40,047 nt of DNA from Fidelibacterota bacterium (GTDB lineage Bacteria > Fidelibacterota > Marinisomatia > Marinisomatales > UBA1611): assembly GCA_002718655.1 (NCBI GenBank), contig PBFM01000010.1:1-40047 (forward strand), written 5' to 3'. Position numbers and translations under genes: made by a program. Each line of letters opens with the position of its first letter. The first letter of the stretch is position 1. The notes under the pieces are model-generated. The model was not told the DNA's origin. It saw nothing but the letters and a program-made list of their open reading frames with translations, and did not search any database. Below, in pieces: positions 14,210-35,377 of this stretch.

Positions 14210-16147
14210 ATGTATAATGAACAAAATCAAGAACAGGTTGTTGAACAGACTTTAGAATCGACTGAAAATGATAGTGATGAAAAAGTCAGCGTTATGGATA
14301 CGCCTACTGCCATAGAAAATAATAGTACAAAAATAAAAGATTACCTTAATCCAAAATTATTTGATGAAATAAAAACAGTAAATAAAAATGATTTGGATGA
14401 AAATAAGCTTGTGACAGATGTGGATGATGAACTAAAAGCTAAATATGCAAGTACATTTGCTGATATTTCAGAACATTCATTAATTAATGGACGTGTAATT
14501 GGTATGAATGAAAGAGATGTCCTTATTGATATTGGTTTTAAATCAGAAGGCATTATTGATAGATCTGAGTTTAGCGAAAATGATTTACCAGCTGTTGGTG
14601 AACAGGTTGAGGTTTATTTAGAGTTTATTGAGGATGCAAGTGGAAATACTATTCTATCAAAAGAGAAAGCTGATTTTTTACTCCGATGGAAAGAACTTAA
14701 AGATGCTTTTGAAAACGAAACGATTATTACTGGAAGAATTGTTCGTCGCATCAAAGGTGGATTGATTGTCGATTTGGGAGTTGTTCAGGCATTTTTACCT
14801 GGTTCTCAGGTAGATGTTCGTCCCATTCAAGATTTTGATATTTATTTAGAAAAAGAAATTGATATTCGAATTGTTAAATTCAATGAATCAAGAAAAAATA
14901 TAGTTGTATCGCATAAAATCATATTAGAAGATAGTTTGCAAGAGCAAAGAGAAGCTCTTTTTAAAGAATTAGAGGTTGGATCAATCCTTGAAGGAAGAGT
15001 CAAAAATATCACTGATTTTGGTGTTTTTGTCGATTTAGGTGGTATTGATGGTTTATTACATATCACAGATCTTTCTTGGGGTAGGGTGAACCACCCATCT
15101 GAATTATTATCAATGAATGATCCAATCACAGTCAAAGTAATCGAATATGATGAAGAAAGAAAACGTGTTTCACTGGGCTTAAAACAACTTGCCCCTCACC
15201 CTTGGGAAGAAGTTGAGATTAAATTCCCAATAGGAAATGTTGTTAAAGGGAAGGTCGTTAGTCTAACAAACTATGGTTGCTTTATTGAATTAGAACCAGG
15301 TGTAGAGGGATTAATTCACGTATCTGAAATTTCTTGGACTAAGCATATAAAAAACCCATCTGAGGTTTATAATATGGGCGATGAGGTTGATGCAAAAGTA
15401 TTATCAATTGACGCTGATGAGAAGAAAATAAGTTTAGGTGTAAAACAACTTACACCAGACCCATGGGATGAAATTGAAGAAAAATTTATGGTAGGTACCG
15501 TTCATAAATCAATAGTGCGAAACCTTGCACAATTTGGTGCATTTTCTGAATTAGAGGATGGTATTGATGGACTAATTCATGTATCTGATTTATCCTGGAC
15601 AAAGGTTATAAAACATCCTAAGGAGGTTCTTGAAAAAGGACAAGAAATAGAAGTGAAAATATTAGAAATATCTAGAGAAAATCGAAGAATATCACTTGGG
15701 TATAAACAAGTTCAAGATGATCCTTGGTCTGAAATCGAAAATTATTACGAAGCAGGGAAAGAAGTAAGTGGCCCAATATTAAGAGTGCTTGACAAAGGGA
15801 TAATTATTCAACTTGATATGGATGTAGAGGGTATAATACCATTTGGCAAAATGTCAAAAAAAGACAGACGAGCATTAGCTGGACAGTACGAAGTTGGAGC
15901 AAACCTATCAGGAATTGTTATGAAAGTAACGCCCGAAGATAAAAAAGTAGTTTTGTTTAAGGAGGAATTAGCAGGAGCTACAAATAGGACTTCAGCCAAT
16001 GATGAGGTCAAACAATATTTATCTAATCAAAAAACTTCAGATGGTGATAAACTCGAATTGCCTCAGGAATTATTGGAAATTGCTAGTCAGGCTGAAAAAG
16101 ATGGTAAAGTTTCTGAAGAGCCTGAACAGGAATCAGAAAAAGAATAA
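14210..16147 (+). CDS. rpsA: 30S ribosomal protein S1 (six S1-like repeats)
   Basis: Repeated S1 motifs, e.g. 'GRVKNITDFGVFVDLGGIDGLLHITDLSWGR'; follows cmk. Confidence 0.96.
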   Translation: MYNEQNQEQVVEQTLESTENDSDEKVSVMDTPTAIENNSTKIKDYLNPKLFDEIKTVNKNDLDENKLVTDVDDELKAKYASTFADISEHSLINGRVIGMNERDVLIDIGFKSEGIIDRSEFSENDLPAVGEQVEVYLEFIEDASGNTILSKEKADFLLRWKELKDAFENETIITGRIVRRIKGGLIVDLGVVQAFLPGSQVDVRPIQDFDIYLEKEIDIRIVKFNESRKNIVVSHKIILEDSLQEQREALFKELEVGSILEGRVKNITDFGVFVDLGGIDGLLHITDLSWGRVNHPSELLSMNDPITVKVIEYDEERKRVSLGLKQLAPHPWEEVEIKFPIGNVVKGKVVSLTNYGCFIELEPGVEGLIHVSEISWTKHIKNPSEVYNMGDEVDAKVLSIDADEKKISLGVKQLTPDPWDEIEEKFMVGTVHKSIVRNLAQFGAFSELEDGIDGLIHVSDLSWTKVIKHPKEVLEKGQEIEVKILEISRENRRISLGYKQVQDDPWSEIENYYEAGKEVSGPILRVLDKGIIIQLDMDVEGIIPFGKMSKKDRRALAGQYEVGANLSGIVMKVTPEDKKVVLFKEELAGATNRTSANDEVKQYLSNQKTSDGDKLELPQELLEIASQAEKDGKVSEEPEQESEKE

Positions 16148-16173
16148 AAACATAAACTCAGTGGGTTAAAATC

Positions 16174-17139
16174 GTGAAAAAAAATAAACCCATTGAACAC
16201 AAATTCACATTCTTACCGGGTGCTTTCGGGTTAGCTTTATTGCTCTGGATTTTTGTTGTTGCAGAAAATGAATTTACCTTAGTCTTAGACCTTCCCATAG
16301 AAGCCAGAAATTTAAATGTTCAAAAAGCGCATAAAAAGGAGGTACCTCCATATGCATCTGTGCGCTTGAGAGGAACGGGAAGAGATTTATTCAAATCTTT
16401 TTTATTAAAAAATTTTGCTGGATTTAAGTTAGTTTTAGATTTAGAGGGTATATCTCAGGAATACGAGTTTAACTTAAATGAATATTTTGAAAAATATCCA
16501 CAAAAAGTAGTGTTACCATTAAACTATAATGTCTCTTTTGTTGAAGTGATTTATCCAAACCGAATAAATATTAGTTTAGATGAATACTCATCTAAAATGG
16601 TACCAATATTATCAAATTTTCATGTAAAACCTGCACCTGGTTATACTATCATTACTAAACCTGATATAACTCCTTCAGAAATTGAAGTAGCAGGTCCAAA
16701 AAAAGAATTAGCTTTGATAAATCATATAGAAACTATTTATGATACGATAACTGGAATAACTACAAAATATGATGGTTCAATTGAACTAACATCTCTAGGA
16801 CGCTTAATTGAATATTCAAAAAATTTTGTTACGATTAGTGTAGATGTACAAATTATCAGTGAACGTATAATTTCGGATATTCCAGTTGGTGTAATAAATA
16901 TACCGAAAAACTTTAGAGTGTTTGCATCTCCACAAACGGTTTCACTAACGGTCTTAGGTGGTGTTAAAAGAATATCTGAGCTTTTCCCGAATGATATAAA
17001 AGTCATCGTTGATTTTAAAAATTGGGATAGATTAATTCAGTTCTATGAACCCAAAGTAATTATACCTGAGGATATCTTAGATTGGAGGGATATTTCTCCA
17101 AAAAATCTTGAAATAGCAGTTGCGAGAGAATTAGAATGA
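16174..17139 (+). CDS. YbbR-like (CdaR-type) domain protein
   Basis: GTG start; N-terminal TM ('LALLLWIFVVAENE') followed by YbbR-like repeats ('VKPAPGYTIITKPDITPSEIEVAGPKKEL'). Confidence 0.8.
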   Translation: MKKNKPIEHKFTFLPGAFGLALLLWIFVVAENEFTLVLDLPIEARNLNVQKAHKKEVPPYASVRLRGTGRDLFKSFLLKNFAGFKLVLDLEGISQEYEFNLNEYFEKYPQKVVLPLNYNVSFVEVIYPNRINISLDEYSSKMVPILSNFHVKPAPGYTIITKPDITPSEIEVAGPKKELALINHIETIYDTITGITTKYDGSIELTSLGRLIEYSKNFVTISVDVQIISERIISDIPVGVINIPKNFRVFASPQTVSLTVLGGVKRISELFPNDIKVIVDFKNWDRLIQFYEPKVIIPEDILDWRDISPKNLEIAVARELE

Positions 17140-18125
17140 TTGTCTTAGGTATTGAAACTTCTTGTGATGAAACAGCAGCTTCAGTGTGCAGGAGTGGAAA
17201 AATATTATCAAGCATAGTTAGTAGTCAGATTATACATAGTGAATTTGGAGGAGTAATACCTGAACTAGCTTCGAGAGAACACGAATTGCTTTTAAATGAG
17301 GTAGTAAATAAATCACTAATTGATTCAAAAATTAGCTTAGGAAATTTGGATGGTATTGCAGTTACACAAGGTCCTGGTCTTTCTGGCACATTGCTCACTG
17401 GAATTAGTTTTGCTAAAGGTCTAGGCATTGGTTTAGGTATTCCAGTTATTCCAGTGAACCATCTAGAAGGGCATATTTTTGCAAATTTCTTAGCAAATGA
17501 CAAATTAAATTTTCCTTTTATATGTTTATTAGTATCTGGCGGTCACACTCAATTATGGTCCATATTGGGTATGAATGATTATGAATTATTAGGAGAGACT
17601 AGGGATGATGCAGCAGGAGAAGCTTTTGATAAAGGTGCTCGAATTTTTGGTTTGGGTTATCCAGGTGGGCCACTGATTGAAAAAAATGCAGAAGGTGGCG
17701 ATCCAAATAAGATAAAATTTCCAAGAAGTTTGCTTGAAGATAATAGCTTGGAGTTTAGCTTTAGTGGTTTAAAAACATCCTTACTTTATTATATGGATGG
17801 TTTTCAGGAAAAAGAATCCTTATTAATTAAAGATGTAATCGCAAGCTATCAACAAGCTATCATTGATACATTAGTTGAAAAAATGAGAAGAGCAGTCAAA
17901 CTTACAGGTATAACTAGATGTGTTATTGCAGGAGGTGTCGCAGCAAACCTCTGTTTAAGAGAGGCACTAAAACATAAACTGCCGGAAAATGAATTGATTT
18001 TTCCCGATTTATCTTATTGTACGGATAATGCAGCAATGATTAGTTATTTAGGCGAGTTAAAACTGCAATTTGATGAGTATGATTCTATGGGATTTGGCGC
18101 AATCCCGAATTTAAAGTTAAGATAA
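17136..18125 (+). CDS. tsaD: tRNA N6-adenosine threonylcarbamoyltransferase TsaD
   Basis: 'VLGIETSCDETAASV', 'PVNHLEGHIFANF', 'LLVSGGHTQL', 'VIAGGVAANLCLR'. Confidence 0.97.
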   Translation: MIVLGIETSCDETAASVCRSGKILSSIVSSQIIHSEFGGVIPELASREHELLLNEVVNKSLIDSKISLGNLDGIAVTQGPGLSGTLLTGISFAKGLGIGLGIPVIPVNHLEGHIFANFLANDKLNFPFICLLVSGGHTQLWSILGMNDYELLGETRDDAAGEAFDKGARIFGLGYPGGPLIEKNAEGGDPNKIKFPRSLLEDNSLEFSFSGLKTSLLYYMDGFQEKESLLIKDVIASYQQAIIDTLVEKMRRAVKLTGITRCVIAGGVAANLCLREALKHKLPENELIFPDLSYCTDNAAMISYLGELKLQFDEYDSMGFGAIPNLKLR

Positions 18126-18127
18126 TT

Positions 18128-20230
18128 TTGAAATTTAGTTTTGTAGATTATGACCAATCATTTTGGTTGATATTATTTTTATCGTTTGGTGTTGTTTTTT
18201 TCTCTTTCCATAAATCCTGGAAATTTAAAAAGGTAAAGATTCTTTTGGTTTTTAGAATAATTGTAATTGGAATAATAATTTTTCTTTTTTTAAACCCCAA
18301 ATTAACCCTAGTTAAAACAAATAATCGTGAACAAAAATGGAATATTTATATAGATGAATCATTAAGTATGGCATATCATTCTTATCCATCAATAAGCTCA
18401 CTTATTTCTGGGATAGATGAATTAATTCACAAATTAAGTAAGAAACAAATCCCCCTCAATATTTATGGGTTTGGAACAAATTTGGATACTAGTCTGGCAA
18501 TAAACAATACTGAATTCAAAGATATTTCAACAAATATTGGTCAAGTAATTGAACAAATAATTAATGAAAGTGATAAAAACCTTGCTGGCTCTATAATAAT
18601 TACTGACGGGCAAATTAACCAAGGATCGGAAATTATTATTGACCAACTAGACAAGATTAAACCTATAAATATTATTGGTATAGGTGATAAAAATCCATTG
18701 GTTGACGTTTCAATTCAATCAATCAATGCACCCCCTGCAATTATCAAAGGTGAGAATGCTGAAATTGAAGTCTCTGTTAATTCATATGGCACTATAGATA
18801 ATAGAATTAATGTCACCTTGAATAATGGAAAAAAATTATTAGGTTCAAAAGTATTAACAGTTTCTGGGAATGGTAGTATCAATAAAATTCGATTTATGAT
18901 AAATCCTGATCAAACAGGAGAAGTAGAATATAAAGTGCAGGTAAGCGCGCTTCCCGATGAAATTAATATTCTAAATAATAAACAGATAGTACCAATTCAA
19001 GTATTAAAGAATAACTATAAAATTTGTATTATCACAGGTTCGCCAAATTTTAATACTAGGATAATAAAGGATGTATTATCAGGTAATAGTAAATTTGAAA
19101 TTGAACATTTTTATCTAACAAGAAATGGCTATTCAGAAAAGTTAAAAATATTTTGGGATACTAAATATGATTTGATTTTATTTGATAATCACCCAGTAGA
19201 CCTTAACTCATCAAATTGGGATTCATTTTTAAGAATTTTTGCAAAAAAAATACTATCTCAAAAAACTAGTTTTGCAGTGATCATGGGAAATGATGTAAAC
19301 AAAAATTCATTGATGCCATATCTAAATCTGATGGATTTAAAAATAAATCAATCGGTGATAAAATTAGATTCAGAACACAAATGGAATTTTACAAAAAACT
19401 GGAATAAATACTTCCCCTTCCATAGCCTTGATTTAATAAGCATAGAAAATGATTATCCTCCATTATACGTTGATTTAGAAATAGATTCAGCAGGAGCTGT
19501 GGTTTTGGCAGAATTCACAATTTCTGATGTTAATTTACCCCTAATACTCCTTGGAGAAAAAGACCCTCTGAGGTACATGGTTTTTGTATCTCCCAATTTA
19601 TATCAGCTTTATTATAAAATACAGAATGATCAATCTCACAACATTGCTAAACAAACTTTAGATCCAATTTTTTCTTGGTTAATGAGAACTGGTCATGGAG
19701 AGGACTTTTATTTTAGATCTGGGAAGAATTCTTATCAGCAAGGTGAAAGGGTTAAAATAAGTGGCAAACCTATAAAAGAAACTGAAATTGCAACAGAAGG
19801 ATATATACATATTTACAGCAAAGGTAAAAAAGTTAATGTAAAACCAGTTGTATACAATAATGAGACAGGCCATTATGAAGGTCAATTTTGGGCATCCCAG
19901 CCAGGGAGATTAGATTATGATATTGAGTTGGTCTATGGAGATAAATCCTTAATTGTAGGTGAAGGGTCTTTACAAATCCAAGAAAGCCAAATTGAATTAA
20001 ATAGGGTATACTTAAATGAAGAATTTCTACGTAATTTGTCAGAATCTACGGGTGGTACATTTTATGGATGGGATAAACGTTTCGAAATATTAAACAATAT
20101 TGATAAAAAAACAAATACTCAGAAGATACTATCAAGAATTACTATCCATAATAGCTGGTGGTTATTTTTTGCTTTAATTTTTTTTCTAACATTGGAGTGG
20201 TTGTACAGAAGAAAAGTTGGTTTGATTTGA
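18128..20230 (+). CDS. Membrane-anchored VWA-like protein
   Basis: TTG start; two N-terminal TMs, 'IYIDESLSMAY' DxSxS-like motif, C-terminal TM. Confidence 0.6.
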   Translation: MKFSFVDYDQSFWLILFLSFGVVFFSFHKSWKFKKVKILLVFRIIVIGIIIFLFLNPKLTLVKTNNREQKWNIYIDESLSMAYHSYPSISSLISGIDELIHKLSKKQIPLNIYGFGTNLDTSLAINNTEFKDISTNIGQVIEQIINESDKNLAGSIIITDGQINQGSEIIIDQLDKIKPINIIGIGDKNPLVDVSIQSINAPPAIIKGENAEIEVSVNSYGTIDNRINVTLNNGKKLLGSKVLTVSGNGSINKIRFMINPDQTGEVEYKVQVSALPDEINILNNKQIVPIQVLKNNYKICIITGSPNFNTRIIKDVLSGNSKFEIEHFYLTRNGYSEKLKIFWDTKYDLILFDNHPVDLNSSNWDSFLRIFAKKILSQKTSFAVIMGNDVNKNSLMPYLNLMDLKINQSVIKLDSEHKWNFTKNWNKYFPFHSLDLISIENDYPPLYVDLEIDSAGAVVLAEFTISDVNLPLILLGEKDPLRYMVFVSPNLYQLYYKIQNDQSHNIAKQTLDPIFSWLMRTGHGEDFYFRSGKNSYQQGERVKISGKPIKETEIATEGYIHIYSKGKKVNVKPVVYNNETGHYEGQFWASQPGRLDYDIELVYGDKSLIVGEGSLQIQESQIELNRVYLNEEFLRNLSESTGGTFYGWDKRFEILNNIDKKTNTQKILSRITIHNSWWLFFALIFFLTLEWLYRRKVGLI

Positions 20231-20273
20231 TTACCCAGAAAAACAATTAAATGGAAGAAAAAATTAATTAGAT

Positions 20274-21596
20274 ATGAGAAATGTAACAATTGTAGGTGCT
20301 GGTTATGTAGGATTGGTTAGTGGAGCAGGAATTTCTGATTTTGGCCACATAGTAACGTGTGTTGATATATCTAAAAATAAAATCAAAGAGTTGAAAAATG
20401 GTAAAATACCAATATACGAACCTGGTTTAGATGAATTAATAAAAAAAAATGTAAAAGCAGGTAGATTATTTTTTGAAAACAATATAAAAGATGCTATATC
20501 AAATGCAGATATAATTTTTATTGCTGTAGGGACACCAATGAATCAAGATGGTAGTGCCGATATAACTGCAGTAAAAGATGTAGCCAAATCAATTGGTGAA
20601 AATTTAAATAACTATAAGGTTATTTGTACTAAAAGTACAGTCCCAATAGGTACGGGGAAACTGATTATTGATATTATAAAAAATTATAAACCTAATGATA
20701 TTAGATTTGATTATGTCTCAAACCCTGAATTTTTAAGGGAAGGTTCTGCTGTTAAAGACTTTTTATGGCCAGATCGAGTTGTGATTGGTGCACAAAGTCA
20801 ATCTGCTTTTAATATTATGAAAGAAGTATATGGACCATTATATATAAATGAAACGCAAATTATACATACAGGTGTTGTAACTGCTGAGATGATAAAGTAT
20901 GCTTCAAATTCCTTTTTAGCTTTGAAAATAAGCTATATAAATGAAGTCGCCAATTTATGTGAAGCAATAGGTGCTGATGTACATCAAGTATCAAATGCTA
21001 TGGGAAAAGATGGAAGAATAAGTCCTAAATTTTTGCATCCAGGCCCTGGTTTTGGAGGATCATGTTTTCCGAAGGACACGAAAGCATTTCTTTCTTTTTC
21101 AGAAAGCTATGGAAATAAGTTAAGAACTATACAAGCTGCAATTGAAACAAATAAAAATCAAAAGCAAAGAATGGTTGAAAAAATAAAGAAACTTATCGGT
21201 GGAAATTTAAAAAATAAAAAAATTGCAATTTTAGGATTGGCTTTTAAACCAAATACCAATGATGTGAGAGAATCTGCATCAATACATATGATTGAATCCT
21301 TAAATCGTAAAAGGTGTATAATAAATGCATTTGACCCAATTGCAAATGATGAGATGAAGAAAATTTTTCCTAATTTAAATTATAAAAACTCTTGGCAAGA
21401 AGCATGTAAAGGTGCAGATGGGGTAGTAGTGATGACTGAATGGAATGAGTTTAGAGGTATAAGTCTCTCATTATTAAAATCACTTTTAAAACGACCTATT
21501 TTATTGGATACTAGAAATATATTTGATATAGAAAAACTAATAAAGCATAATTATAAATTTGATAATGTTGGCAGGAAATATTTAGATGAAAATTGA
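20274..21596 (+). CDS. ugd: UDP-glucose 6-dehydrogenase
   Basis: 'VGAGYVGLVSGAGISDFGH', 'STVPIGTG', 'NPEFLREGSAVKDFLWPDRVVIG', 'GPGFGGSCFPKDT'. Confidence 0.96.
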   Translation: MRNVTIVGAGYVGLVSGAGISDFGHIVTCVDISKNKIKELKNGKIPIYEPGLDELIKKNVKAGRLFFENNIKDAISNADIIFIAVGTPMNQDGSADITAVKDVAKSIGENLNNYKVICTKSTVPIGTGKLIIDIIKNYKPNDIRFDYVSNPEFLREGSAVKDFLWPDRVVIGAQSQSAFNIMKEVYGPLYINETQIIHTGVVTAEMIKYASNSFLALKISYINEVANLCEAIGADVHQVSNAMGKDGRISPKFLHPGPGFGGSCFPKDTKAFLSFSESYGNKLRTIQAAIETNKNQKQRMVEKIKKLIGGNLKNKKIAILGLAFKPNTNDVRESASIHMIESLNRKRCIINAFDPIANDEMKKIFPNLNYKNSWQEACKGADGVVVMTEWNEFRGISLSLLKSLLKRPILLDTRNIFDIEKLIKHNYKFDNVGRKYLDEN

Positions 21597-22131
21597 AAAT
21601 TCTTATCTTAATGAAGTAAAAATAATCACTCCTGATATCTATTTTGACGAAAGAGGAAATTTTTCTGAAGTATATAAATCCTCAGTATTTAAAAATAATG
21701 GCATAAGAGCAAAATTTGTTCAGGATAATGAAGTTAGATCAAAGTACGGAGTTTTAAGAGGATTGCATTATCAATTAAAATCACCTCAAGGCAAACTTAT
21801 TCGCTGTATTTTAGGAACAATCATTGATGTTGCGGTTGATATTCGAATTGGATCACCAACATTTGGTAAACATATTAAACTAGAATTATCAGCAGATAAT
21901 AAAAAAATGTTATATATACCTGAAGGGTTTGCACACGGATATCTTGTAACATCAAAAAAATCAATTGTTATTTATAAGTGTACAACATACTATGATGAGA
22001 ATGATCAGTATGGTGTTATTTGGAATGATAAAGATTTAGATATAAATTGGAATTTTGAAACACCAGCTCTATCTCAAAAAGATAAAACTTTACCAATGTT
22101 AAAAATAAATAAAAATCTCCCAAAATATTAA
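21586..22131 (+). CDS. rfbC: dTDP-4-dehydrorhamnose 3,5-epimerase
   Basis: '[11 protein letters not shown]', '[31 protein letters not shown]', '[11 protein letters not shown]'. Confidence 0.95.
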
Positions 22132-22133
22132 AA

Positions 22134-23186
22134 ATGAAGAAAATTCTTGTAACTGGTGGTTGTGGATTTATAGGTTCAAATTTTATTAAATCTGTTATTA
22201 AAAAGGATGAATCTATTTTTATTGTGAATGTTGATAAACTAACATACGCTGGAAATTTGTCAAATTTACAGGATATATCTAGCAGTAATTTTCTGCATAT
22301 AAAAGGTGATATTTGTGATTCAGAATTAATATACTCCATATTTAAAAAATATTCCTTTGATGCAGTAGTGCATTTTGCTGCTGAAAGTCACGTTGATAGG
22401 TCTATTGATGGTCCGTCTAAGTTTGTTAAAACGAACATTGTTGGTACGATGAACTTATTAGAAAATTCGAGAAAATTCATAACGGAATCAAAAGTTAAAA
22501 AATTCAGATTCGTACATATTTCTACGGATGAAGTATATGGGTCACTTACTGATGATATGAAGTTTGTAGAAACGACAAAGTATGATCCTAGTTCACCATA
22601 TTCTGCATCAAAAGCTGGAGCCGATCATTTAGTTAGATCATGGTATCGGACATTTGGTCTCCCCACATTAATAACTAATTGTTCAAATAATTATGGTCCA
22701 TTCCAATTTCCAGAAAAACTAATCCCTTTAATGATAATAAATGCTATGATGGATAAACCCTTACCTATTTACGGTAAAGGGGAAAATATAAGAGATTGGT
22801 TGTATGTTACTGATCATTGTGACGCTATTTGGTCTGTTCTAAATAGTGGTCTTGTAGGAGAGACTTACAATATTGGAGGTGATAACGAAATTAAGAATAT
22901 AGATATTGTTACTAAAATTTGTGAAATTCTTGATGATTTATTACCAAGGGATGATGGGAAAATGCATTCAGAATCAATTACTTTTGTCAAAGATCGTCCT
23001 GGTCATGATTTCCGTTATGCGATAGATGCAAAAAAGATCAGAACTGAATTAGGTTGGAAACCAAAGGAGTCTTTTGATACAGGAATCAGAAAAACTATAG
23101 AGTGGTATCTTTGTAATAAGTCTTGGTGGAAAGCAATACAAGATCAAACATATGGGCAAGAAAGATTAGGAACATTAAATAAGTGA
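22134..23186 (+). CDS. rfbB: dTDP-glucose 4,6-dehydratase
   Basis: '[15 protein letters not shown]', '[14 protein letters not shown]', 'STDEVYGSL', '[15 protein letters not shown]'. Confidence 0.97.
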
Positions 23187-24073
23187 AGGGAATTATTTTA
23201 GCAGGAGGAAGTGGAACAAGGTTGTACCCAATTACCTCTGTAGTATCAAAACAATTACTTCCCATATATGATAAACCAATGATATACTATCCTCTTTCTA
23301 CTTTGATGCTTTCAGGTATAAATGATATTTTAATTATCTCGACAATTGAAGATACGCCTAGATTTCGTGATTTACTCGGTGATGGAAATCAATTAGGTAT
23401 AAAAATTACTTATAAAGTACAGCCATCACCAGATGGTTTGGCCCAAGCTTTTATATTAGGGGAAGAATTTATTGGTAATGATTCGGTTTGTTTAATTTTA
23501 GGAGACAATATTTTTTTTGGACACGGATTATCAGAATTATTAAATCGAAGTAAAAATATTGTTAATTCAAATGGTGATGCAGTCATCTTTGGATATGAAG
23601 TCAAAGACCCAGAACGTTATGGAGTGGTTACTTTTGATAGCAAAAATAATGTAAAGAGCATTATAGAAAAACCAAAAAAACCAAAATCAAATTATGCTGT
23701 AGTAGGATTATACTTTTATCCAAACAACATCATTGAAATTGCAAAAGATATTAAGCCTTCAGATAGAGGTGAATTGGAAATAACGTCAGTCAATGAAGTT
23801 TTTCTTAGCAGAAGACAGTTGACTGTTGAATTGATGGGTCGTGGATATGCTTGGCTTGATACAGGAACTCAACGTGCGATGAATAACGCTTCGAATTTCA
23901 TCAAAACTATTGAAGATAGACAAGGATTGAAAATAGCATGCCTCGAGGAAATTGCATATCAAAAAGGCTTTATTAATATCAATCAATTAGATGATTTATC
24001 TAATCAATTTTCTAATGATTATGGTCAGTATTTGAAAAATTTGGTAGCAAGAAATAAAAAAATAAAATCTTAA
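23183..24073 (+). CDS. rfbA: Glucose-1-phosphate thymidylyltransferase
   Basis: GTG start; '[37 protein letters not shown]', '[11 protein letters not shown]'. Confidence 0.97.
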
Positions 24074-25426: not shown

Positions 25427-27403
25427 TTATTTACTCCTCGCACCTAAAAAAATAATATTTGATAGTGCCTTTATAAAGTATTTCAAATCGGTAAATAATG
25501 GTGATTTTTCTTTTTGGTTTAAATATGTTCTTTCACTTTCAATTATCGCATCGAATGACTTTGGTAGGTCTGCGTAATATGGTGGAATTAATCCAGGCTT
25601 GAAATTTATTCGCTTTTCTTGTAAATCTTTAGGATAAAGGCTGTAATAGTGTTCACTGAGGGCTCTAACTCCTATAAAATTCAAGTCACCTTTTAACCAA
25701 TTATATAGTTGTGGAATTTCATCAATAAAATATTTTCGAAAAAATTTCCCCCATGATGTGATTCTATAATCCCCTTGTAATTTCCCTGTTTTATCTAAGT
25801 GATATTTATCATAAATCTCACCCTGAATAAACTCACTATAGGGATACATTGTTCTTATTTTATATATGTAAATTAGTTTTCCTTCATATCCTATTCTTTT
25901 CAATTTTACTATAGGACCGTATGAAGGAGAGGTTTCTTTTGAAATAGTTTTCTTTTTCTTGCATACAAAGTATAATCTATCTGAAATGAGATTTTCATCT
26001 ATAATTTCAAATCCACAAAATGAAAGTCTTCCAAATATTTCTGATTTTGATAATATTCGATTTTTTCCCTTGGTTAAAATGAAATATATTTGTTTAGTAA
26101 TCATAAGTTTTGGAAATACTCTGTGAAAAAGAAAATGAAAAGGAAGTAATATTAAATAGAGAAAATGAGGCATTTTTGATCTAAGATGTATTCTAAATTT
26201 TTCCAATGGAACAAAATTACCTACTAAAATTCCACCACTTTCTAGTTTTTTATAATTAGCCAGTAAATATTCATTTATTCTTCTACAATCATTTAATCTA
26301 TTAACATTAATTATTAATTTTTTTGAATCATTGAATAACAGTTTAATATTTACGGTTTGATCTGTATTGAAAATTGAAACTTTATTTTTTTCAATTTGTT
26401 CATCAGTGATTGTACTCCAAATGAATTTTATTAATTGATTTTGATAAGCGAAACCAAATGTTTTGATGCTATCTTTTAACAATTCTCTTGTATATGTATT
26501 TTTATTATTTTCTCCAATATTTTCGATTTCCAATTCATCTTGTCCCTCATCTGTAAGAGGAATTTTATTATATCTCTTATTCCTAATTCCATTTTTTTTT
26601 GATTCTCCAAAAAAGAATAAATAAAAAGCAGTTATTTCAATACCAGAATGGAAAATCCCAGCGTTGAAAATTAGAGAAATTGAATCTGAATCGATTCTCA
26701 ATATGTAATAAAATAAGGTTATAAAAAGAATTGTTAATATAGATGCCTTGATATAAGGTGCAATTTCATAGTAGTGATTAATAGAATTTGGTTCCTTATA
26801 TCTATTAGTTAAAAGGGTTCCTAAACCCCAAGATGCTATTAATATTAGTAGATTTTGTTCGTGCATTAGACCATATTGAAAAGACCCATATTTTATGTAA
26901 TTGGTACCAATGTATGTAAAAAAAAGCAATAATATTCCTGGTATAAGCCATTTAATATAAAATTTATTGATGCCCTTTATTTCTATTCTTTTGTCACTGT
27001 ACTTTACTTTGACATTAGTAGATTGAATCATAGCCTTAAATAATATTGAAACAAAAATATCATATAAAAACAAAATAATTGTTAGGGTAAGTATGAATAA
27101 TCTTGAAGTACTCCATAGGTTAGAAAAAGATATAATTATTACTACAAATAATATGCATATAAGAGTTGACCAGAATGTTATTCTTAATGCAAGCCAAAGT
27201 GGTTTTTGTATTAATGCAATTGTTCTTTCATAGTAAAAAGATGTGAAATTTCTAAAAATTAAAAAAATAAAGTATAAGTATAAGTAATTACCATATGGAA
27301 TAAATACTGAGAACTTTTCATAGTGTAAAATTGAAAAAAAGATAGAAAAGAAAGTTAAATCTATTGTAAAAAGAATACTTTGTAGGGTTTTTTTGTGTAT
27401 CAT
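25427..27403 (-). CDS. Polytopic membrane sugar transferase with a central extra domain
   Basis: C-terminal bacterial sugar transferase motifs 'YIYKIRTM', 'RITSWGKFFRKYFIDEIPQLYNWLKGDLNFIGVRALSEHY'; multiple N-terminal TMs. Confidence 0.85.
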   Translation of the reverse strand: MIHKKTLQSILFTIDLTFFSIFFSILHYEKFSVFIPYGNYLYLYFIFLIFRNFTSFYYERTIALIQKPLWLALRITFWSTLICILFVVIIISFSNLWSTSRLFILTLTIILFLYDIFVSILFKAMIQSTNVKVKYSDKRIEIKGINKFYIKWLIPGILLLFFTYIGTNYIKYGSFQYGLMHEQNLLILIASWGLGTLLTNRYKEPNSINHYYEIAPYIKASILTILFITLFYYILRIDSDSISLIFNAGIFHSGIEITAFYLFFFGESKKNGIRNKRYNKIPLTDEGQDELEIENIGENNKNTYTRELLKDSIKTFGFAYQNQLIKFIWSTITDEQIEKNKVSIFNTDQTVNIKLLFNDSKKLIINVNRLNDCRRINEYLLANYKKLESGGILVGNFVPLEKFRIHLRSKMPHFLYLILLPFHFLFHRVFPKLMITKQIYFILTKGKNRILSKSEIFGRLSFCGFEIIDENLISDRLYFVCKKKKTISKETSPSYGPIVKLKRIGYEGKLIYIYKIRTMYPYSEFIQGEIYDKYHLDKTGKLQGDYRITSWGKFFRKYFIDEIPQLYNWLKGDLNFIGVRALSEHYYSLYPKDLQEKRINFKPGLIPPYYADLPKSFDAIIESERTYLNQKEKSPLFTDLKYFIKALSNIIFLGARSK

Positions 27404-27462
27404 CCTATGGAATCATCCTATTTTGCTTGCAATGGGGATTAAATTAAAGGATGGAATACATA

Positions 27463-27482
27463 TGATACTGTGTCCAGGATCA
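27463..27482. promoter_or_regulatory. Small hairpin in the 220-nt leader of the sugar transferase gene
   Basis: TGATACTG-tgtc-CAGGATCA: 8-position stem with one mismatch. Confidence 0.4.
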
Positions 27483-27623
27483 CATTCTTGTAGGGTAAGT
27501 ATAGCAAAACGCATTTGGCATTTATTCTTTTTTTCTTAAAATGCTAACGTTCTACACCGATAAACTTTTCTCCTACTTACATACCAAATATAGCTATTTT
27601 TAAATTGATAAGGAAAAAAATTG

Positions 27624-28694
27624 TTATTCTATTAATAATTGTTTTTCAGAATTTTCAAACATTTCTTTCTTTGACTCAGGATAGTTCAATATAAACCATT
27701 TCATAAATTTTGTTACATCAATTGTTTTTTTTATAAACTTATCTCTTTTTTGTATTTGATTTGTTTTGATTTTTTTATTTTTTATGATGCTAATAGCTTT
27801 TTCTTTAACACCCTCAGTTGAATTAAAAATATATACTAACCCATTTTTCTCTTGCTCTTCCAAGGTACCTGCAGTTAGGGTATTTATATAAATTGCAGGT
27901 GTGCCTAAAATCGCGCATTCAGATGCCATAGTCGCACCCTCACCAATAAATAAAGTTGCATGGAATAGAATGCTATGAATTTCATTTGCAGTTGCATTTA
28001 ATTTATTTTTTCCTAGTTGAACTGGTATATCTCCCTCAGAAGAAATAAATACTGGAGCATAATTTTCAATTTCTTTAACAAGTTTAATTAAAAAATTTAA
28101 TTCAAAACCTTTTTGGCCAATATCATGGCTGGCATTCCAAGAAACTAATCGAATTATTACGTATTTTTGATTTAACGCTAAATTCAAATTGGTAAAAAAA
28201 TTATTATTTGGTTGGAAATATTTAGGGTGCAGGTAACATTGCTCCATAAATCCGTTAAAACGAATGTGCTTATTTCCTAAATGATTTTTATATGCATTAG
28301 GTGTTAGTACTATTTGAGAGAATGGTAAAAATGACATAATGCCAATTTTAGCGTTCTCAGTATCAGTAAATGTAATGTGAGGTTTTTTTAAAAAAAATGC
28401 CACCTGCGCAGCATAAGGTGATGCAAAACTTAGGAATAGATTAGGCTTGAATATTTTTGCTATTTTGTATAACTGATAGTTTGCTTTGAATAAATAAAAA
28501 AATTTCCCGATTAATCCTCTCTTGCCTTCGCCTCTTGATACGTATTGTATACTGTAATGATCTAGTAGATTATGAGTAACATCTTTATTACGTGCAGTTA
28601 TTAAAACTTTGTGACCTTCATTTTTTATCTCCATAATAAAATTTTTAAAATAATGCACATGTGCAGGATGCCCTATATCAAGAAAAATTTTCAT
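27624..28694 (-). CDS. DUF354 family glycosyltransferase/epimerase-like protein
   Basis: 'MKIFLDIGHPAHVHYFKNFIMEIKNEGHKVLITAR', 'FIGEGATMASECAILGTPAIYINTL'. Confidence 0.8.
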   Translation of the reverse strand: MKIFLDIGHPAHVHYFKNFIMEIKNEGHKVLITARNKDVTHNLLDHYSIQYVSRGEGKRGLIGKFFYLFKANYQLYKIAKIFKPNLFLSFASPYAAQVAFFLKKPHITFTDTENAKIGIMSFLPFSQIVLTPNAYKNHLGNKHIRFNGFMEQCYLHPKYFQPNNNFFTNLNLALNQKYVIIRLVSWNASHDIGQKGFELNFLIKLVKEIENYAPVFISSEGDIPVQLGKNKLNATANEIHSILFHATLFIGEGATMASECAILGTPAIYINTLTAGTLEEQEKNGLVYIFNSTEGVKEKAISIIKNKKIKTNQIQKRDKFIKKTIDVTKFMKWFILNYPESKKEMFENSEKQLLIE

Positions 28695-29611
28695 GAAACA
28701 TATTTTACTTTTTCATACACTTTTAAGATTTTAATCGAAACCAAATCCAATCTATATTCTTTTACAGCATCTCTTCCATTAGTTTTTTCTTTTGATTCTA
28801 AGATTAATTTTATTTTATCTTGTATTTCCTTTTCGTTGTAATCTGTTATGAAGCAATTTTTCACATTTTTTATCAATTTATTAACATCACCAACATTGGT
28901 TGAAATTATTGGACAATTACATGCCAATGCTTCTTTAACTACTAATGGTCCTGTTTCTGAAAACGATGTGACAAGTAACATATCAACTGCATTCATTAAA
29001 AGACTTACCTCAGTTCTAGAAAGATCTTTCATCTCAATCAGCTCACAATTGTCTATTTTTTTAACTGCTAATCTTGCCAAAGGATAGTTTTTGATTTTAT
29101 TATTGAATGAAGACGAAAATAGTACATAATTCTTATTTTGATTAAGCCCTAGTTTATTTCTTGCATCTGAAATTGGCATTGGTTTAAAAATATTTAAATC
29201 TATACCACAGGGTATAATGTCAATATCTCTTGAATATATTTTTAACTTTTTTGACAAATCTGAATGAACAAAAATATTTCTTGCTGATAATCTTGATGCT
29301 AGCCAACTATATAAGTAATTATGCCATAAATTAACATCGCTTCCATGAAATGTAATCACAACAGGGACTAATTTTTGCATTGATGCTAGTAAACCAGATA
29401 AGCCATAATGAGCATGAATGATATCATAACTTTTATTTTTTGTTAACTTGTTTCTTAGTAAGAAATAATTTTTTAAGTATCCAACAATTCCTTTGCCTTT
29501 GATTAGAAAATAATCAATTGCTAGACCGTGTTTCTCAAGACTATTTACCTGTTCCTTAACAAACGGACTGATTTTATAACTATTCCCACTCGCTACAATT
29601 AAAATTCTCAT
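28691..29611 (-). CDS. Glycosyltransferase family 4-like protein
   Basis: 'DIIHAHYGLSGLLASM', 'VITFHGSDVNLW', 'SFSETGPLVVKEALACNCPIISTNVGDV'. Confidence 0.9.
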   Translation of the reverse strand: MRILIVASGNSYKISPFVKEQVNSLEKHGLAIDYFLIKGKGIVGYLKNYFLLRNKLTKNKSYDIIHAHYGLSGLLASMQKLVPVVITFHGSDVNLWHNYLYSWLASRLSARNIFVHSDLSKKLKIYSRDIDIIPCGIDLNIFKPMPISDARNKLGLNQNKNYVLFSSSFNNKIKNYPLARLAVKKIDNCELIEMKDLSRTEVSLLMNAVDMLLVTSFSETGPLVVKEALACNCPIISTNVGDVNKLIKNVKNCFITDYNEKEIQDKIKLILESKEKTNGRDAVKEYRLDLVSIKILKVYEKVKYVS

Positions 29612-29612
29612 A

Positions 29613-30836
29613 TTAAGATTTCATCGTGGCTAGTAAGTAATAAAAAAGGGATCCAGAAGTGACTGAGTCAATTACATGACCACCAAAAAAGCTGTAGGCA
29701 AAAAATAAGATAATAGCAATATTGTTCCTTTCATTAGATTGGTAAAAGTCTTTTATTAAACCTCTGGTAATCAAAAGTAAAAAAATTAGTGTTCCAATTA
29801 TGCCATATTTGAAAAAAAAATCAAAAAAATCCATAGATGCATTAGTAAACCAAAATTCACCTCTTTTTTTCCAAAATAAATTTTGTCCGGAAAAACTAGT
29901 TCCAAAAAGTAAAGTCAATGAGTTAGAAAAAGATTCTTCCATTTGTATGTTCAATGAGGCATAGCGTCTAAAATTAATTGATGCTATTCGATTTAAAGTT
30001 TGATTATCATATAAGCCACCAACTTTTTCTGCAGCAGCTATTGATTTATTTATGTTAATACCAAACCGTGACTCATACATTTCAATCGATTTATCAATCA
30101 ACATTGAGAATGAAAAAATAAAAATAATAGTAAAAATATTATATGCTATAATCTTATTTAGACTAAGAGCCCTTCTTTTTAGAGCAAAAAAAATTGGAAT
30201 AATAAAACCAAAAACACTTTTTGATGCAATTATAAAAGCATTGAAAAAAGTTAATGATAAAGGAATAATTTGCTTTCTTAGTTTTTCATCTAGTAAAAAA
30301 TATGTGAAAAAAATCAAGTTCAATATTGAAACAGGGTTACCACCTTGGAACATGCCTTTTGATGTCCCTTCAAATCTATATGCCTCTAGTCCTAATCCAA
30401 ATAAATGACCTGCTAAAAGGTTTAACACAAAAATAGAAAAATTGATATAAATAACTCTCTTAGAAAAGTTTTCACTTATATCCATACGATATTTAATAAA
30501 TACAAAAAGAAAAAGAAGAAATTGAAATCTTAGAATGTAGGTTACATCTTCAAGCAGCATATTAAGCGATGCATGAAAGAAAAAGTGGATAATTGTATTA
30601 AGAACAAAAAATAATAACATAAAGATACTTAACAATTCACCGAAAAATAAATTTTTCTTTATGGCTTTCATGAAATAAAATATTATAAAAAAAAATAAAA
30701 TTGGACCCCTAATCCAATATCCAATATTGAATAATGGATTAGAGATTCCTAAATAAATACGAATGAACCCACTTAAGGTATCAATAAATAGAAAGCTCAA
30801 CATATAATATTTAACAATAGTGTGCAATCTAATCAT
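29613..30836 (-). CDS. Wzy-like O-antigen/EPS polymerase
   Basis: 407 aa polytopic membrane protein in EPS locus, between GT and flippase. Confidence 0.7.
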   Translation of the reverse strand: MIRLHTIVKYYMLSFLFIDTLSGFIRIYLGISNPLFNIGYWIRGPILFFFIIFYFMKAIKKNLFFGELLSIFMLLFFVLNTIIHFFFHASLNMLLEDVTYILRFQFLLFLFVFIKYRMDISENFSKRVIYINFSIFVLNLLAGHLFGLGLEAYRFEGTSKGMFQGGNPVSILNLIFFTYFLLDEKLRKQIIPLSLTFFNAFIIASKSVFGFIIPIFFALKRRALSLNKIIAYNIFTIIFIFSFSMLIDKSIEMYESRFGININKSIAAAEKVGGLYDNQTLNRIASINFRRYASLNIQMEESFSNSLTLLFGTSFSGQNLFWKKRGEFWFTNASMDFFDFFFKYGIIGTLIFLLLITRGLIKDFYQSNERNNIAIILFFAYSFFGGHVIDSVTSGSLFYYLLATMKS

Positions 30837-30850
30837 ATGATTGTTTCATT

Positions 30851-32167
30851 TTAACCATTAGCGAATGATTTAATTTTAAGATAAGCCATTAATATTTGGT
30901 AACTGACACCTGTTATGTTTCCAATTGTATATCCGATGGCAACACCTAATAAACTGTAATTAGGCACTAAAATAACCCAAGATATAAGTGATACAAAAAA
31001 TATTATTACACCACCAATATTTGGGTAGATTATGTATTTAGTGCCAGAAAGAAATGATACAAATGGGATTGATGTTATCCTAATGAATACACTTGGTAAA
31101 AGTAATTGCAAAATAATACTACCCTTTACGAATTCTTCGCCAAATAAGTTTAGAATATCTGATGAAATTAAATAAACTATAGTACATAATGCTGCTGATA
31201 ATGAAATCATTATTTTACTTGTTTGATAAAATAATTGAGTTATTTCTTTATTTTTTTCTGCACCAAATAGGTTTGATATTTCTGGAAGGAACACCTGGGT
31301 GAAAAGTTTGGGTATGAACATAAGAATGCTCACGATAGCAAGGACTGAAGAATAAAGTCCGGCGTCTGACTGACTAAGGTACATTCCTATTACAAGTATT
31401 GACAGATAACCAGTGCCTGTACTTGCTACAGTACCTACCATACTTACTATGCCATAATGAGAAAATTTTTTCATAATATCATTTTTATTGAAATTATCCA
31501 AATATGACATATTTTTTGTTATGGTTTGATAATTTTTCAACAAAAGTATTATGCTAATAATAACAAAAGTTGCATAGCCATAAATATAACAGTCTAATAA
31601 AAGAGTAGTTTTACCTTTAAAAGCAACTAAGATGATTGCTAAAAACAAAACTATATCTGATATAATTTCAATTTTTGCATATATAGAAACTAGATCTACA
31701 CTGTAATAGATTCTTCTAAAGATAATGTAGAAAGACCGGAAAAATATGTAAAATATGATTTTTATAAATAACTCATATGGTAAGGAAAAGTTTTTACTAA
31801 AATAATCCCATTTTATAAGCAATATTGTGTTTAGAAGTAATAAAATTATTATTGGTCCAAATATGACTATCTTTAAAACATACACAAATTGATTGTAACT
31901 ATTCTTTCCTCTATACTCGGCAAGAAATTTATTTCCAGCACTGCCAAAAAAATTTGTTACAAAAATTGTAATTATTAGACAAAAACTAATCATTATATTG
32001 AATTCTCCAAGGACTTCTTGTCCAAAGAACCTTGCAATAATGAAATTAAATAGCGGAGTTATTATTCCAGCAAATAGCAGAGCAAGCCCTGTGTAAAATG
32101 AGTTTTTTAAAATACGTTTACTGAAAATAGAGGGTTTAATTTTCTTGTCTATCAATATATATTGCAA
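30851..32167 (-). CDS. Wzx-like polysaccharide flippase
   Basis: 438 aa polytopic; 'GLALLFAGIITPLFNFIIARFFGQEVLGEFNIM' characteristic of MOP/Wzx proteins. Confidence 0.85.
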   Translation of the reverse strand: MQYILIDKKIKPSIFSKRILKNSFYTGLALLFAGIITPLFNFIIARFFGQEVLGEFNIMISFCLIITIFVTNFFGSAGNKFLAEYRGKNSYNQFVYVLKIVIFGPIIILLLLNTILLIKWDYFSKNFSLPYELFIKIIFYIFFRSFYIIFRRIYYSVDLVSIYAKIEIISDIVLFLAIILVAFKGKTTLLLDCYIYGYATFVIISIILLLKNYQTITKNMSYLDNFNKNDIMKKFSHYGIVSMVGTVASTGTGYLSILVIGMYLSQSDAGLYSSVLAIVSILMFIPKLFTQVFLPEISNLFGAEKNKEITQLFYQTSKIMISLSAALCTIVYLISSDILNLFGEEFVKGSIILQLLLPSVFIRITSIPFVSFLSGTKYIIYPNIGGVIIFFVSLISWVILVPNYSLLGVAIGYTIGNITGVSYQILMAYLKIKSFANG

Positions 32168-33338
32168 AAGGGATTGCTAAAATAATTCCCAAAAATAATG
32201 AAAGAATTACTATCAATGTTCGTTTAGGCTTTGCCTTCTTAACTGCAGGTTCAGCAGTATCCAAAATACTGATTAGAAGTCGTTCCTTTGCTTCGTCAAT
32301 TTTTGCTATTTCAAATTGTTGTCTTAGTGTAATGTCAACAGCGCGATTTTCTTCAACAGCGCTTTCAAGTCTTTCCCTTGTCATTTCTATGGAAGGGGTA
32401 TCAAGCCTAAGAGGGTGGCTTTTTCTAAAATCTGTTAAAATATCCTCTGAATATTCCGTTTGTGATTTTGCATCTTCCATTTGATTCTCAATAAACACTC
32501 TATTTCTTGAAGCTTCTCTTTTTTGTTCTATCGATATGAAATTTTTGACATATTCAGCGATATAGTTTGCTATGTCAGATGAAAGTTTTGGATCTTCTGT
32601 TAAAACTTTGACCGTTATCAAGCCCGAAATTTCCTCTTTTACGGAAATTAATTCATCTAATTGTAATATAGCTTCATAGGTTTGTTTATCAATCTTATTT
32701 GAGCTAAAACCGCCCGTTGGTAAAATTTTTTTAATTAATTTAATTGGTGAGAAAAGGGGAGGCTTGTCTAGTTCCCAATATTTAATTAGGTTTGAGCCGT
32801 TTGGATAAAGTTTTGATTCCCATTGTTTTAAGACAATATCTTTTTTTAATCTTCTGCTCTTGATGATATCAGGTATATTGTATGTCGTAGTACTAGTAAG
32901 ACCTCCAATTCCAAAAGATTTTGCAAGGCCTTGAAAATCACCAAGCATTCCTCCTGAGTTATTTTGTTCTCCAGCAGGATATAGTGATATTTTTGATTCG
33001 AAGTAGATAGTAGCAAGAAGGGAGTAAACCAGCCCAATTAAAGTAAAAAATATGCCAAATTTTAAAATAAAAGTTTTTTTATTACTGATAATTTTAAATA
33101 TTGCCTCGACATTAATTTCATCATTTTCATTTATTAATTGGAGATGATTCTTTTTCCCCTTTAAGTGTTCAAGCTGAATAAGGTCTCTTTTTTTTAGTTC
33201 AGCAATACGGTTTCTTAAAGTTTTTTCGGTTAATCCATATTTGGATGCAATTTTAGTTCTTTCGCTAGGATTATCAATAATTTTAGGATTTTCATTAATA
33301 ATATTTAAAATCTTTTCTTCGTGTGGAGTCAATTTCAT
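32136..33338 (-). CDS. Wzz-type polysaccharide chain-length determinant with N-terminal winged-helix domain
   Basis: aa about 1-60 'LTPHEEKILNIINENPKIIDNPSERTKIASKYGLTEKTLRNRIAELKKRDLIQLE' wHTH-like; then TM, coiled coil 'DAKSQTEYSEDILTDFRK', Wzz-type 'AEPAVKKAKPKRTLIVILSLFLGIILAI' and second TM. Confidence 0.85.
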   Translation of the reverse strand: MKLTPHEEKILNIINENPKIIDNPSERTKIASKYGLTEKTLRNRIAELKKRDLIQLEHLKGKKNHLQLINENDEINVEAIFKIISNKKTFILKFGIFFTLIGLVYSLLATIYFESKISLYPAGEQNNSGGMLGDFQGLAKSFGIGGLTSTTTYNIPDIIKSRRLKKDIVLKQWESKLYPNGSNLIKYWELDKPPLFSPIKLIKKILPTGGFSSNKIDKQTYEAILQLDELISVKEEISGLITVKVLTEDPKLSSDIANYIAEYVKNFISIEQKREASRNRVFIENQMEDAKSQTEYSEDILTDFRKSHPLRLDTPSIEMTRERLESAVEENRAVDITLRQQFEIAKIDEAKERLLISILDTAEPAVKKAKPKRTLIVILSLFLGIILAIPFAIYIDRQEN

Positions 33339-33369: not shown

Positions 33370-35100
33370 TTATTGGTCTCTTTCTCTAATGATAATCGAT
33401 TGGAGATAATACATTAATAGCCCTCCTTGATATAAAGCTCCCACTAATTCTTTAGCTGCTACCCATTCATTATAATCAACTTTGTCTGGTATAAAAATTA
33501 TATCACCATATGATAGGCTTTCATTTTTATTTAATTTTAGTCTTTGACCAGTTGTAGATTTTATAATAAACTTTTTTCTACTTGCGTTTTTTGATACACC
33601 ACCAGCTAATTTAATGTAATCTTTTGCATTGTTAATTGGTTTGTATAAATATCTACCAGGTGCATTTACAGCACCTATGACCTCTATGTATGGAAAGTAA
33701 CGCGGAATGTATATTTCATCACTATTATTTAGGATTATGTCTTTTTGTTTAAGGCTATTCACAGATGTTTCAATGGAGCCTTTTTGGGTTCTTATTCGTG
33801 CTTTTACATAGGCATTTTCTTCAATTGATCTCACTACTTCATTTTTAAGTAATATACGCTCTAACTCTTTATCTGGAATACGCGCAATAATATTGTTATT
33901 GATATAAATTTTGGAACTGTCAGCACTTGGAAGAAATCCACCTGCTTTCTTAATTATATCATTGACGGTTGTTTTTCCTTTTGTGATTGGGTAACTACCT
34001 GGGAATTTAACTTCGCCTAAAATTTGTGCAATACTATAAGAATCATTATTCTCAAAATAAGTCACCATAATATGATCGTCAGGAAGTAATCTTGTAAGAT
34101 TAGTTTCATTTGAATTAACAAAAAAGGATTCTGATTGGTTCTTAAATTTTGACCTTGTAATAAAAATGCTATCTCTTGTTGCATTCGGATGTAGACCTCC
34201 AGCTATGTTAATGGCATTAAGTATATTGTCTTCAGGATTATATTCATATTTTCCTGGCATTTGCACACCGCCTTGGATAGTAAAAAACTGTTTTTTATAT
34301 GGAATATTTATAATGTCATTTTGCCTTATGTATACATTATGGTTTTCATCACCGGTTACCTTAAATTTTTCTAGGTCTATTCTTAATGTATCTGATTGCC
34401 TGAATATTAAAATGTTTCGGTTTGAAAGAAGATCTGATTCAAGCATTTGTTTTTCAGACATTCCCAACTTTCTATCGTAAAAATCATCTACAGCTATTCG
34501 AGAACGCATACCAAATGTTTCTGAAGCACTTAATTGTCTAGCATCCAAATCTAAAATCTCTTTTTTCTTAATATTATGATCAGATATAATTTGGTCATAC
34601 AAATCAGATACTCTTGTCATTGGTGTTACAATAAAATAACCTGCGTTGCTAAACTGTCCAATTACTAATACTCTAAATTCTCTAATTACTTCTAGTTCTA
34701 CATTGATTTTCACATTTGCATTCCAAGATTTTATTTCTTTTTTTATTACTTCAATCAATGTTTTCAAAGTCAAGCCATTACAGGTTACGATGCCTACAGA
34801 CGGGATTAATAAATTTCCGGTTGGGTTTATAATCAGGTTATGGTCAAAGGTTTCATTACTAGATATTATGTTAATATGTAATTGATCGCCCGGGCCAACA
34901 TAATAATTATTAGGATCAACAGCTTTGTCAGCTATAAAATATTCTCTATTTTGATTTCGCTTGGATATTTTATTTGACTGATTGGAAGTTCTTGATAATT
35001 GTTTTTGAGCAATTCTAATTGCACTTAAGTCAAGATTTTGTAATTTAGCAGTAGTACTAATACAAAGCAGTAGCACTGAAAGTTTAATAATTTTTTTCAT
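33370..35100 (-). CDS. wza: Wza-like polysaccharide export protein with several SLBB repeats
   Basis: 'YYVGPGDQLHINI', repeats 'IQGGVQMPGKYEYNPEDNILNAINIAGGL', 'ILGEVKFPGSYPI', 'VIGAVNAPGRYLYKP'. Confidence 0.92.
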   Translation of the reverse strand: MKKIIKLSVLLLCISTTAKLQNLDLSAIRIAQKQLSRTSNQSNKISKRNQNREYFIADKAVDPNNYYVGPGDQLHINIISSNETFDHNLIINPTGNLLIPSVGIVTCNGLTLKTLIEVIKKEIKSWNANVKINVELEVIREFRVLVIGQFSNAGYFIVTPMTRVSDLYDQIISDHNIKKKEILDLDARQLSASETFGMRSRIAVDDFYDRKLGMSEKQMLESDLLSNRNILIFRQSDTLRIDLEKFKVTGDENHNVYIRQNDIINIPYKKQFFTIQGGVQMPGKYEYNPEDNILNAINIAGGLHPNATRDSIFITRSKFKNQSESFFVNSNETNLTRLLPDDHIMVTYFENNDSYSIAQILGEVKFPGSYPITKGKTTVNDIIKKAGGFLPSADSSKIYINNNIIARIPDKELERILLKNEVVRSIEENAYVKARIRTQKGSIETSVNSLKQKDIILNNSDEIYIPRYFPYIEVIGAVNAPGRYLYKPINNAKDYIKLAGGVSKNASRKKFIIKSTTGQRLKLNKNESLSYGDIIFIPDKVDYNEWVAAKELVGALYQGGLLMYYLQSIIIRERDQ

Positions 35101-35115
35101 CTATTTTTATGTAAT

Positions 35116-35159
35116 CTGTTGTAATGAGGCTTAGAAATAGGAATAACATTACACAACAG
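35116..35159. promoter_or_regulatory. Bulged inverted repeat upstream of wza-like EPS operon
   Basis: CTGTTG-TAATG (35116-35126) and CATTA-CA-CAACAG (35147-35159), 6+5 bp with a 2-nt bulge, 20-nt spacer; ends 16 nt from the wza start codon. Confidence 0.5.
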
Positions 35160-35377
35160 CTTTTGATTAATTTACCTTTACCTTTATTTAATTAAAACTT
35201 GGCGCGGTTTTTTCAGATTGTATTCCTTTGTATTATGATAAAAATTATTCTTATAAAATCAATATTACAAATTATATTTAGCCCGGGCAAATGCCCATAA
35301 GTATCTATTCTTTTCATAAGGTTTGAAATAGAATAATAATCAAAATAAATTAATGCTCTTCATAAGGGTTATTATAT

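Follow-up and report, generated by a model that had tools for sequence, protein, structure and literature searches.

How bacteria fit the expression of an export machine to its assembly is mostly open; control of envelope export is known to run through separate kinases, two-component systems or antiterminators. The polysaccharide locus described here, which lies in an analysed stretch of 40,047 nucleotides (the window), raises the question of whether a component of the machine can itself act on transcription. Its gene for a Wzz-type chain-length determinant (32136..33338, minus strand) encodes a helix-turn-helix (HTH) domain at the N-terminus. The favoured answer, with a probability of about two in three, is that the product combines two roles, as a polysaccharide co-polymerase and as a regulator, anchored in the membrane, of the transcription of its own operon.

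The initial annotation had described a single uninterrupted ORF of 400 aa, and this is correct; the frame is that of the minus strand, the plus strand of the same interval containing many stops. The product is a Wzz/GNVR co-polymerase carrying an HTH ahead of its first transmembrane helix. Pfam assigns a Wzz (chain length determinant) domain to aa 73-165 (PF02706; 32844..33122, minus; 30.7 bits against a cut-off of 25.5) and a GNVR domain to aa 323-393 (PF13807; 36.2 bits, above the cut-off). The proposed succession of a transmembrane helix, a periplasmic coiled coil and a second transmembrane helix is borne out by the AlphaFold2 model, which places them at aa 88-108 (33015..33077, minus; a hydrophobic sequence), 250-351 (32286..32591, minus) and 373-399 (32142..32222, minus; within the GNVR region), respectively, with a low-confidence linker between the HTH and the first transmembrane helix. 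The best structural matches of the full-protein model are Wzc, WzzE and KpsE. As had also been noted, Pfam detects no C-terminal tyrosine kinase (BY-kinase) domain in the fusion protein. By analogy with co-polymerase topology, the HTH would be placed on the cytoplasmic side of the membrane, and the protein would form, as its family does, a ring oligomer that sets chain length. Both other Wzz proteins encoded in the same genome are devoid of an HTH.

The HTH occupies aa 1-56 (33171..33338, minus), with the EKTLRNR motif of the recognition helix at aa 38-44. Scanned in isolation, this segment matches HTH_24 with 24.2 bits (cut-off, 21.9), and Pfam-type matches of the N-terminus comprise HTH_24, HTH_Mga and AsnC-type families. 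AlphaFold2, run on an alignment of 14 relatives, predicts three helices for the isolated domain (residues 5-16, 24-33 and 38-50) with block pLDDT values of 83-94 over aa 1-50. A beta-wing is absent from the models of both the full protein and the isolated domain, so that of the winged HTH originally proposed, the HTH is demonstrated but the wing is not. By fold, Lrp/AsnC domains are nearest to the HTH alone in Foldseek (about 2 Å rmsd over about 52 columns), but with weak E-values of 0.1 and above; in sequence, the HTH of Csa3 is the closest solved domain (EKTLINKIAELKKFG in Csa3 and EKTLRNRIAELKKRD in the window). The model of the N-terminus is that of a wingless, three-helix HTH of Lrp/AsnC-like type. 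Lrp/AsnC proteins and Csa3 are soluble and pair their HTHs with ligand-binding domains. In the fusion protein, no RAM ligand-binding domain follows the HTH, the transmembrane helix and Wzz coming next, and no Pfam match to the OmpR-type winged-helix domain (Trans_reg_C) is found. The earlier description of the protein as ToxR-like therefore holds for its layout but not for its type of HTH, which is nearer to Lrp/AsnC.

The fusion gene is the second gene of a cluster ordered wza, wzz, wzx, wzy-like, glycosyltransferase, DUF354 and sugar transferase, all directed away from serS. The first gene of the operon encodes a Wza-type export protein (33370..35100, minus; Pfam Poly_export and SLBB), and the wzx flippase gene (30851..32167, minus; Pfam Polysacc_synt/MatE) overlaps the 3' end of the fusion gene. 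The remaining cluster (25427..30836, minus), identified by Pfam and kept in the same order in relatives, encodes the Wzy-like membrane protein, a GT4 glycosyltransferase, the DUF354 protein and the sugar transferase. The fusion gene is located in a wza-wzx-wzy locus in which wza and wzx are assigned by Pfam and the Wzy-like protein, which has no Pfam match, by position alone. Promoter-like hexamers for wza, TTGATT-16-TATCAT (35235..35262, minus), were detected by a consensus scan and are weak taken alone; some relatives carry TTGACA-17-TAATAT at roughly the corresponding place. Across the taxonomic order, the arrangement rpsA-ybbR-tsaD-VWA-ugd-rmlC-rmlB(-rmlA)-wza-HTHwzz is widely found. Comparison of the 14210-24073 region with other loci indicates that in the window the wza part has been inverted and now lies beside serS.

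The initial annotation had suggested looking for the same architecture in other genomes. A search with an HTH-only profile finds the fusion in 61 of 245 genomes from the marine, uncultured phylum Marinimicrobia; with few exceptions these have a single copy, in an ORF as long as that of a Wzz protein. In almost all loci with a visible neighbour the fusion gene adjoins wza, a single gene lying in between in one genus. Full-length relatives share 47-77% identity throughout the family, and more distant members, whose N-terminal halves fall to 25-36% identity, have the HTH and the start of Wzz in common. No part of the protein is better conserved than the HTH: 14 of its 56 columns are invariant across the order, and EKTLRNR is identical in all 56 aligned rows, which represent 49 distinct loci. 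None of the counter-findings named in the initial annotation arose: an HTH fold is modelled, the basic residues of the recognition helix have been retained, and an assembly artefact is ruled out, as the fusion recurs in dozens of independent genomes.

Further HTH-bearing sequences were noticed in the course of this survey. One genome (G026) carries, besides the main fusion, an independent second fusion of the same kind, a 413-aa Wzz protein with a phage CI repressor-type HTH at its N-terminus (L024 2438-3676, G026:C49; PF07022, 31.2 bits against a cut-off of 22). A candidate stand-alone copy of the HTH (L048 1-3174, G015:C6) was rejected: an inverted junction close to a contig end cuts both wzx and the fusion gene short, and is probably an amplification chimera in this single-cell genome. 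A short HTH fragment (G034:C41) is probably a contig end, because contig C167 begins with the same gene.

The palindrome GCCCGGGC is the candidate operator. It occurs five times in the 2.1-Mb genome of the window, and two of these copies flank the wza promoter. Candidate operator 1 (35281..35288) lies just upstream of the promoter-like hexamers, centred about 55 bp before the inferred transcription start and inside the region 35101-35377 that had been proposed for binding tests; 17 loci from the family and its close kin carry the palindrome in front of wza. Candidate operator 2 (34888..34895) lies 393 bp from operator 1 within the VGPGD codons of wza. The palindrome occupies these codons in all of those relatives except one, although the chance of this codon choice is about 0.001-0.009 per genome. 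Two more copies in the same genome (C21:10076 and C21:11553; L152 4077 and 5554) fall within a gene of penicillin-acylase-like type (codon ~462-466) and the next, phosphodiesterase-like gene (codon ~150), respectively; copies occur at identical codons in three genera (further loci, L154 and L157). This gene pair is a possible second target.

The palindrome is concentrated around the operon in the draft assemblies of uncultured bacteria analysed here. Across 44 loci, GCCCGGGC has 59 copies at the operon, of which 17 fall within 300 bp before wza, 16 within ugd and 26 within wza, compared with two in 556 kb of flanking sequence; the 15 other GC-only 8-mer palindromes are near zero in the same comparison. 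GCCCGGGC or its core CCCGGGC shifts gene, codon and frame between clades. Some clades have it in the upstream region and at wza codons ~65-85, or at wza codon 18 (ARAQ), and others at ugd codons 49 (EPGL), 104 (VARAIG) or 239-242 (VARAMG), or at the 3' end of the gene preceding ugd. In loci whose wza-wzz pair is separated from ugd, such as that of the window, wza contains a site and ugd none. That sites stay with wza when the wza unit leaves ugd argues that they belong to the transcription unit encoding HTH-Wzz. Restriction-site avoidance was rejected as a source of the palindromes, as it would not conserve sites.

A site is present in 42 of the 44 HTH-Wzz loci and in none of 12 control loci of the same phylum that lack the fusion (L187, L205, L206, L208, L209, L210, L213 and L215-L219; L220 was excluded). 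Contigs ending before wza in fusion-bearing genera, two very GC-rich loci and loci with the wza unit elsewhere were left out of the controls. Two of the control operons encode a Wzz without HTH and three have lost the polysaccharide genes. At the places of the ugd and wza sites, CCCGGGC in coding orientation is absent from all 12 controls, in which EPGL uses other codons. The Fisher value for co-occurrence, 1.6e-10, overstates the independent evidence because the loci share phylogeny. One clear exception (L107, G104) has an intact EKTLRNR fusion and no CCCGGGC in ugd or wza; another fusion locus (L106) has no site but is cut off upstream. Conversely, two loci with sites and no visible fusion (L204 and L212) break off at a contig edge or close to one, and come from genera known to have it.

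Between the promoter and wza, the operon has a conserved 5' leader (35107..35231, minus), AAGGAATACTATCGA...GCGCCCAGTTTAA...AAAGGCAA, recognized by alignment and pairing. Within the family of the window, strong matches occur once per genome and only beside wza (L034, L041, L046, L080 and others). Its 5' strand GGAAUACUAUCGA can pair with a downstream strand, and it includes a hairpin, AAACUG-CGCC-CAGUUU, and a GGCAA stretch. The predicted fold is better than those of shuffled sequences in several genomes, though not in the window's own copy, and the pairing of the long-range helix beats shuffles in most genomes. When the strands of this helix were swapped between genomes, the own partner was not favoured, giving no sign of covariation, and no Rfam match to the leader was found. 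The leader is probably a structured RNA, and may add a second layer of control.

Several lines of evidence point to an autoregulator: the HTH fold and family matches, the invariant EKTLRNR, the single copy beside wza and the sites that track the HTH-Wzz unit. The reading given in the initial annotation is supported in part: a co-polymerase encoded next to wza has a DNA-binding-type domain, predicted to face the cytoplasm, with an invariant recognition helix, and operator-like sites accompany its own operon. The presence of such a domain, together with a palindrome that moves with the operon of its gene, suggests that expression of the export genes is probably under the control of the machine they encode. 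Co-occurrence is the link between HTH and palindrome; in its simplest reading, the HTH would bind CCCGGGC and regulate its own operon. An uninterrupted 8-bp palindrome is, on the other side, short for a classical HTH dimer.

Because co-polymerases form multi-subunit rings, several HTHs would be displayed beneath the membrane by each ring. One ring might then hold two operators flanking the promoter, often 360-390 bp apart, and the resulting DNA loop would lower transcription. When the ring is busy with polymerisation and export, the HTHs would release the DNA, so that the supply of export proteins would track demand; the signal read could be ring assembly, engagement with Wzy or Wza, or the polymer. 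In loci of the wza type, paired sites are mostly spaced by 383-393 bp (range, 373-449), in those of the VWA/ugd type by 361-366 bp, and in two loci by 167 and 233 bp; the pairs lie around the start of the first gene, an arrangement that fits a looping repressor carried by an oligomeric ring. Less favourably, the spacings are without clear helical phasing, and many loci have a single site. Such rings are usually controlled from the cytoplasm by a BY-kinase; BY-kinases above the curated cut-off are absent from 22 of 26 genomes, including that of the window, so that control of another kind, as proposed here, has a place. The export ring may, with somewhat less than even probability, itself be a DNA-looping autoregulator through which transcription of the operon directly reports the assembly state, a kinase-free alternative to BY-kinase control.

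Looping autorepression is somewhat favoured over activation because, in loci with paired sites, one site precedes the first gene and its partner falls within that gene. Activation is also possible, given the upstream site about 55 bp before the inferred start in the window. In this alternative, HTH-Wzz would activate its own operon from the upstream site, the intragenic site being a second or decoy site, and the activator would be turned on, in the manner of CadC/ToxR, by engagement of the membrane ring. Weak promoter hexamers directly follow the palindrome in the window and in most close relatives, which puts it at a usual place for an activator; it is further away in relatives with a near-consensus promoter. 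Several clades, by contrast, have sites solely within ugd or wza, an uncommon arrangement for an activator, and this alternative is considered rather unlikely.

A further alternative separates the two elements: an unlinked regulator other than HTH-Wzz would use the palindromes as its operators, and the HTH would be a module through which the co-polymerase contacts other proteins. HTH folds can act as protein contacts, and the tie between HTH and palindrome by co-occurrence, together with L107, which has the HTH without sites, is compatible with this explanation. The exact conservation of the recognition-helix residues, basic ones included, and the association of the sites with the HTH-Wzz unit, from which they are missing where Wzz lacks the HTH, speak against it and make it improbable.

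An incidental origin of the GCCCGGGC sites, from codon use or from conserved GPG, EPGL or ARA peptide motifs, has very little probability: many copies do sit in such motifs and chance is higher in GC-rich loci, but synonymous-codon resampling of ugd and wza gives a mean of 1.1 and a maximum of 4 copies in 300 runs against 42 observed, contradicting this explanation, as do the non-coding copies upstream of wza and the different encoding of EPGL in fusion-free loci. A degenerate relic without present function is equally implausible for an HTH with that many invariant columns and a constant EKTLRNR, and nothing was found in its favour.

Autoregulation by HTH-Wzz therefore remains the preferred reading. 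With a DNA-binding domain in a machine part and a concrete predicted operator, the idea is testable using a 70-residue domain and a 20-bp duplex. If true, it would offer a rare example in which regulator and operator are read jointly from uncultured genomes, with operators that lie inside coding sequence and shift between genes.

The window protein resembles the known Wzz co-polymerases (WzzB, WzzE, Wzc and KpsE) in its Wzz and GNVR domains, its two transmembrane helices, its periplasmic coiled coil and the position of its gene between wza and wzx. A limited literature search found no account of Wzz-HTH fusions, which is weak evidence of novelty. The cytoplasmic N-terminus of Wzc is a single short helix, residues 17-30 (PMC8285477); the window protein has a whole HTH at that place and no kinase domain after it. 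CpsA of Streptococcus agalactiae, a member of the LytR-CpsA-Psr family, is likewise a membrane protein of capsule assembly, the N-terminal part of which reportedly binds the promoter of the capsule operon (PMC8875755); unlike HTH-Wzz, it belongs to another family and acts at another step, the attachment of the polymer to the wall. With ToxR and CadC, the fusion shares a cytoplasmic N-terminal DNA-binding-type domain, a transmembrane helix and a periplasmic part, but its HTH is not identified as their OmpR-type winged helix, its periplasmic part is a machine component, and it has a second transmembrane helix. Unlike in known control, it is a component of the machine itself that bears the DNA-binding domain.
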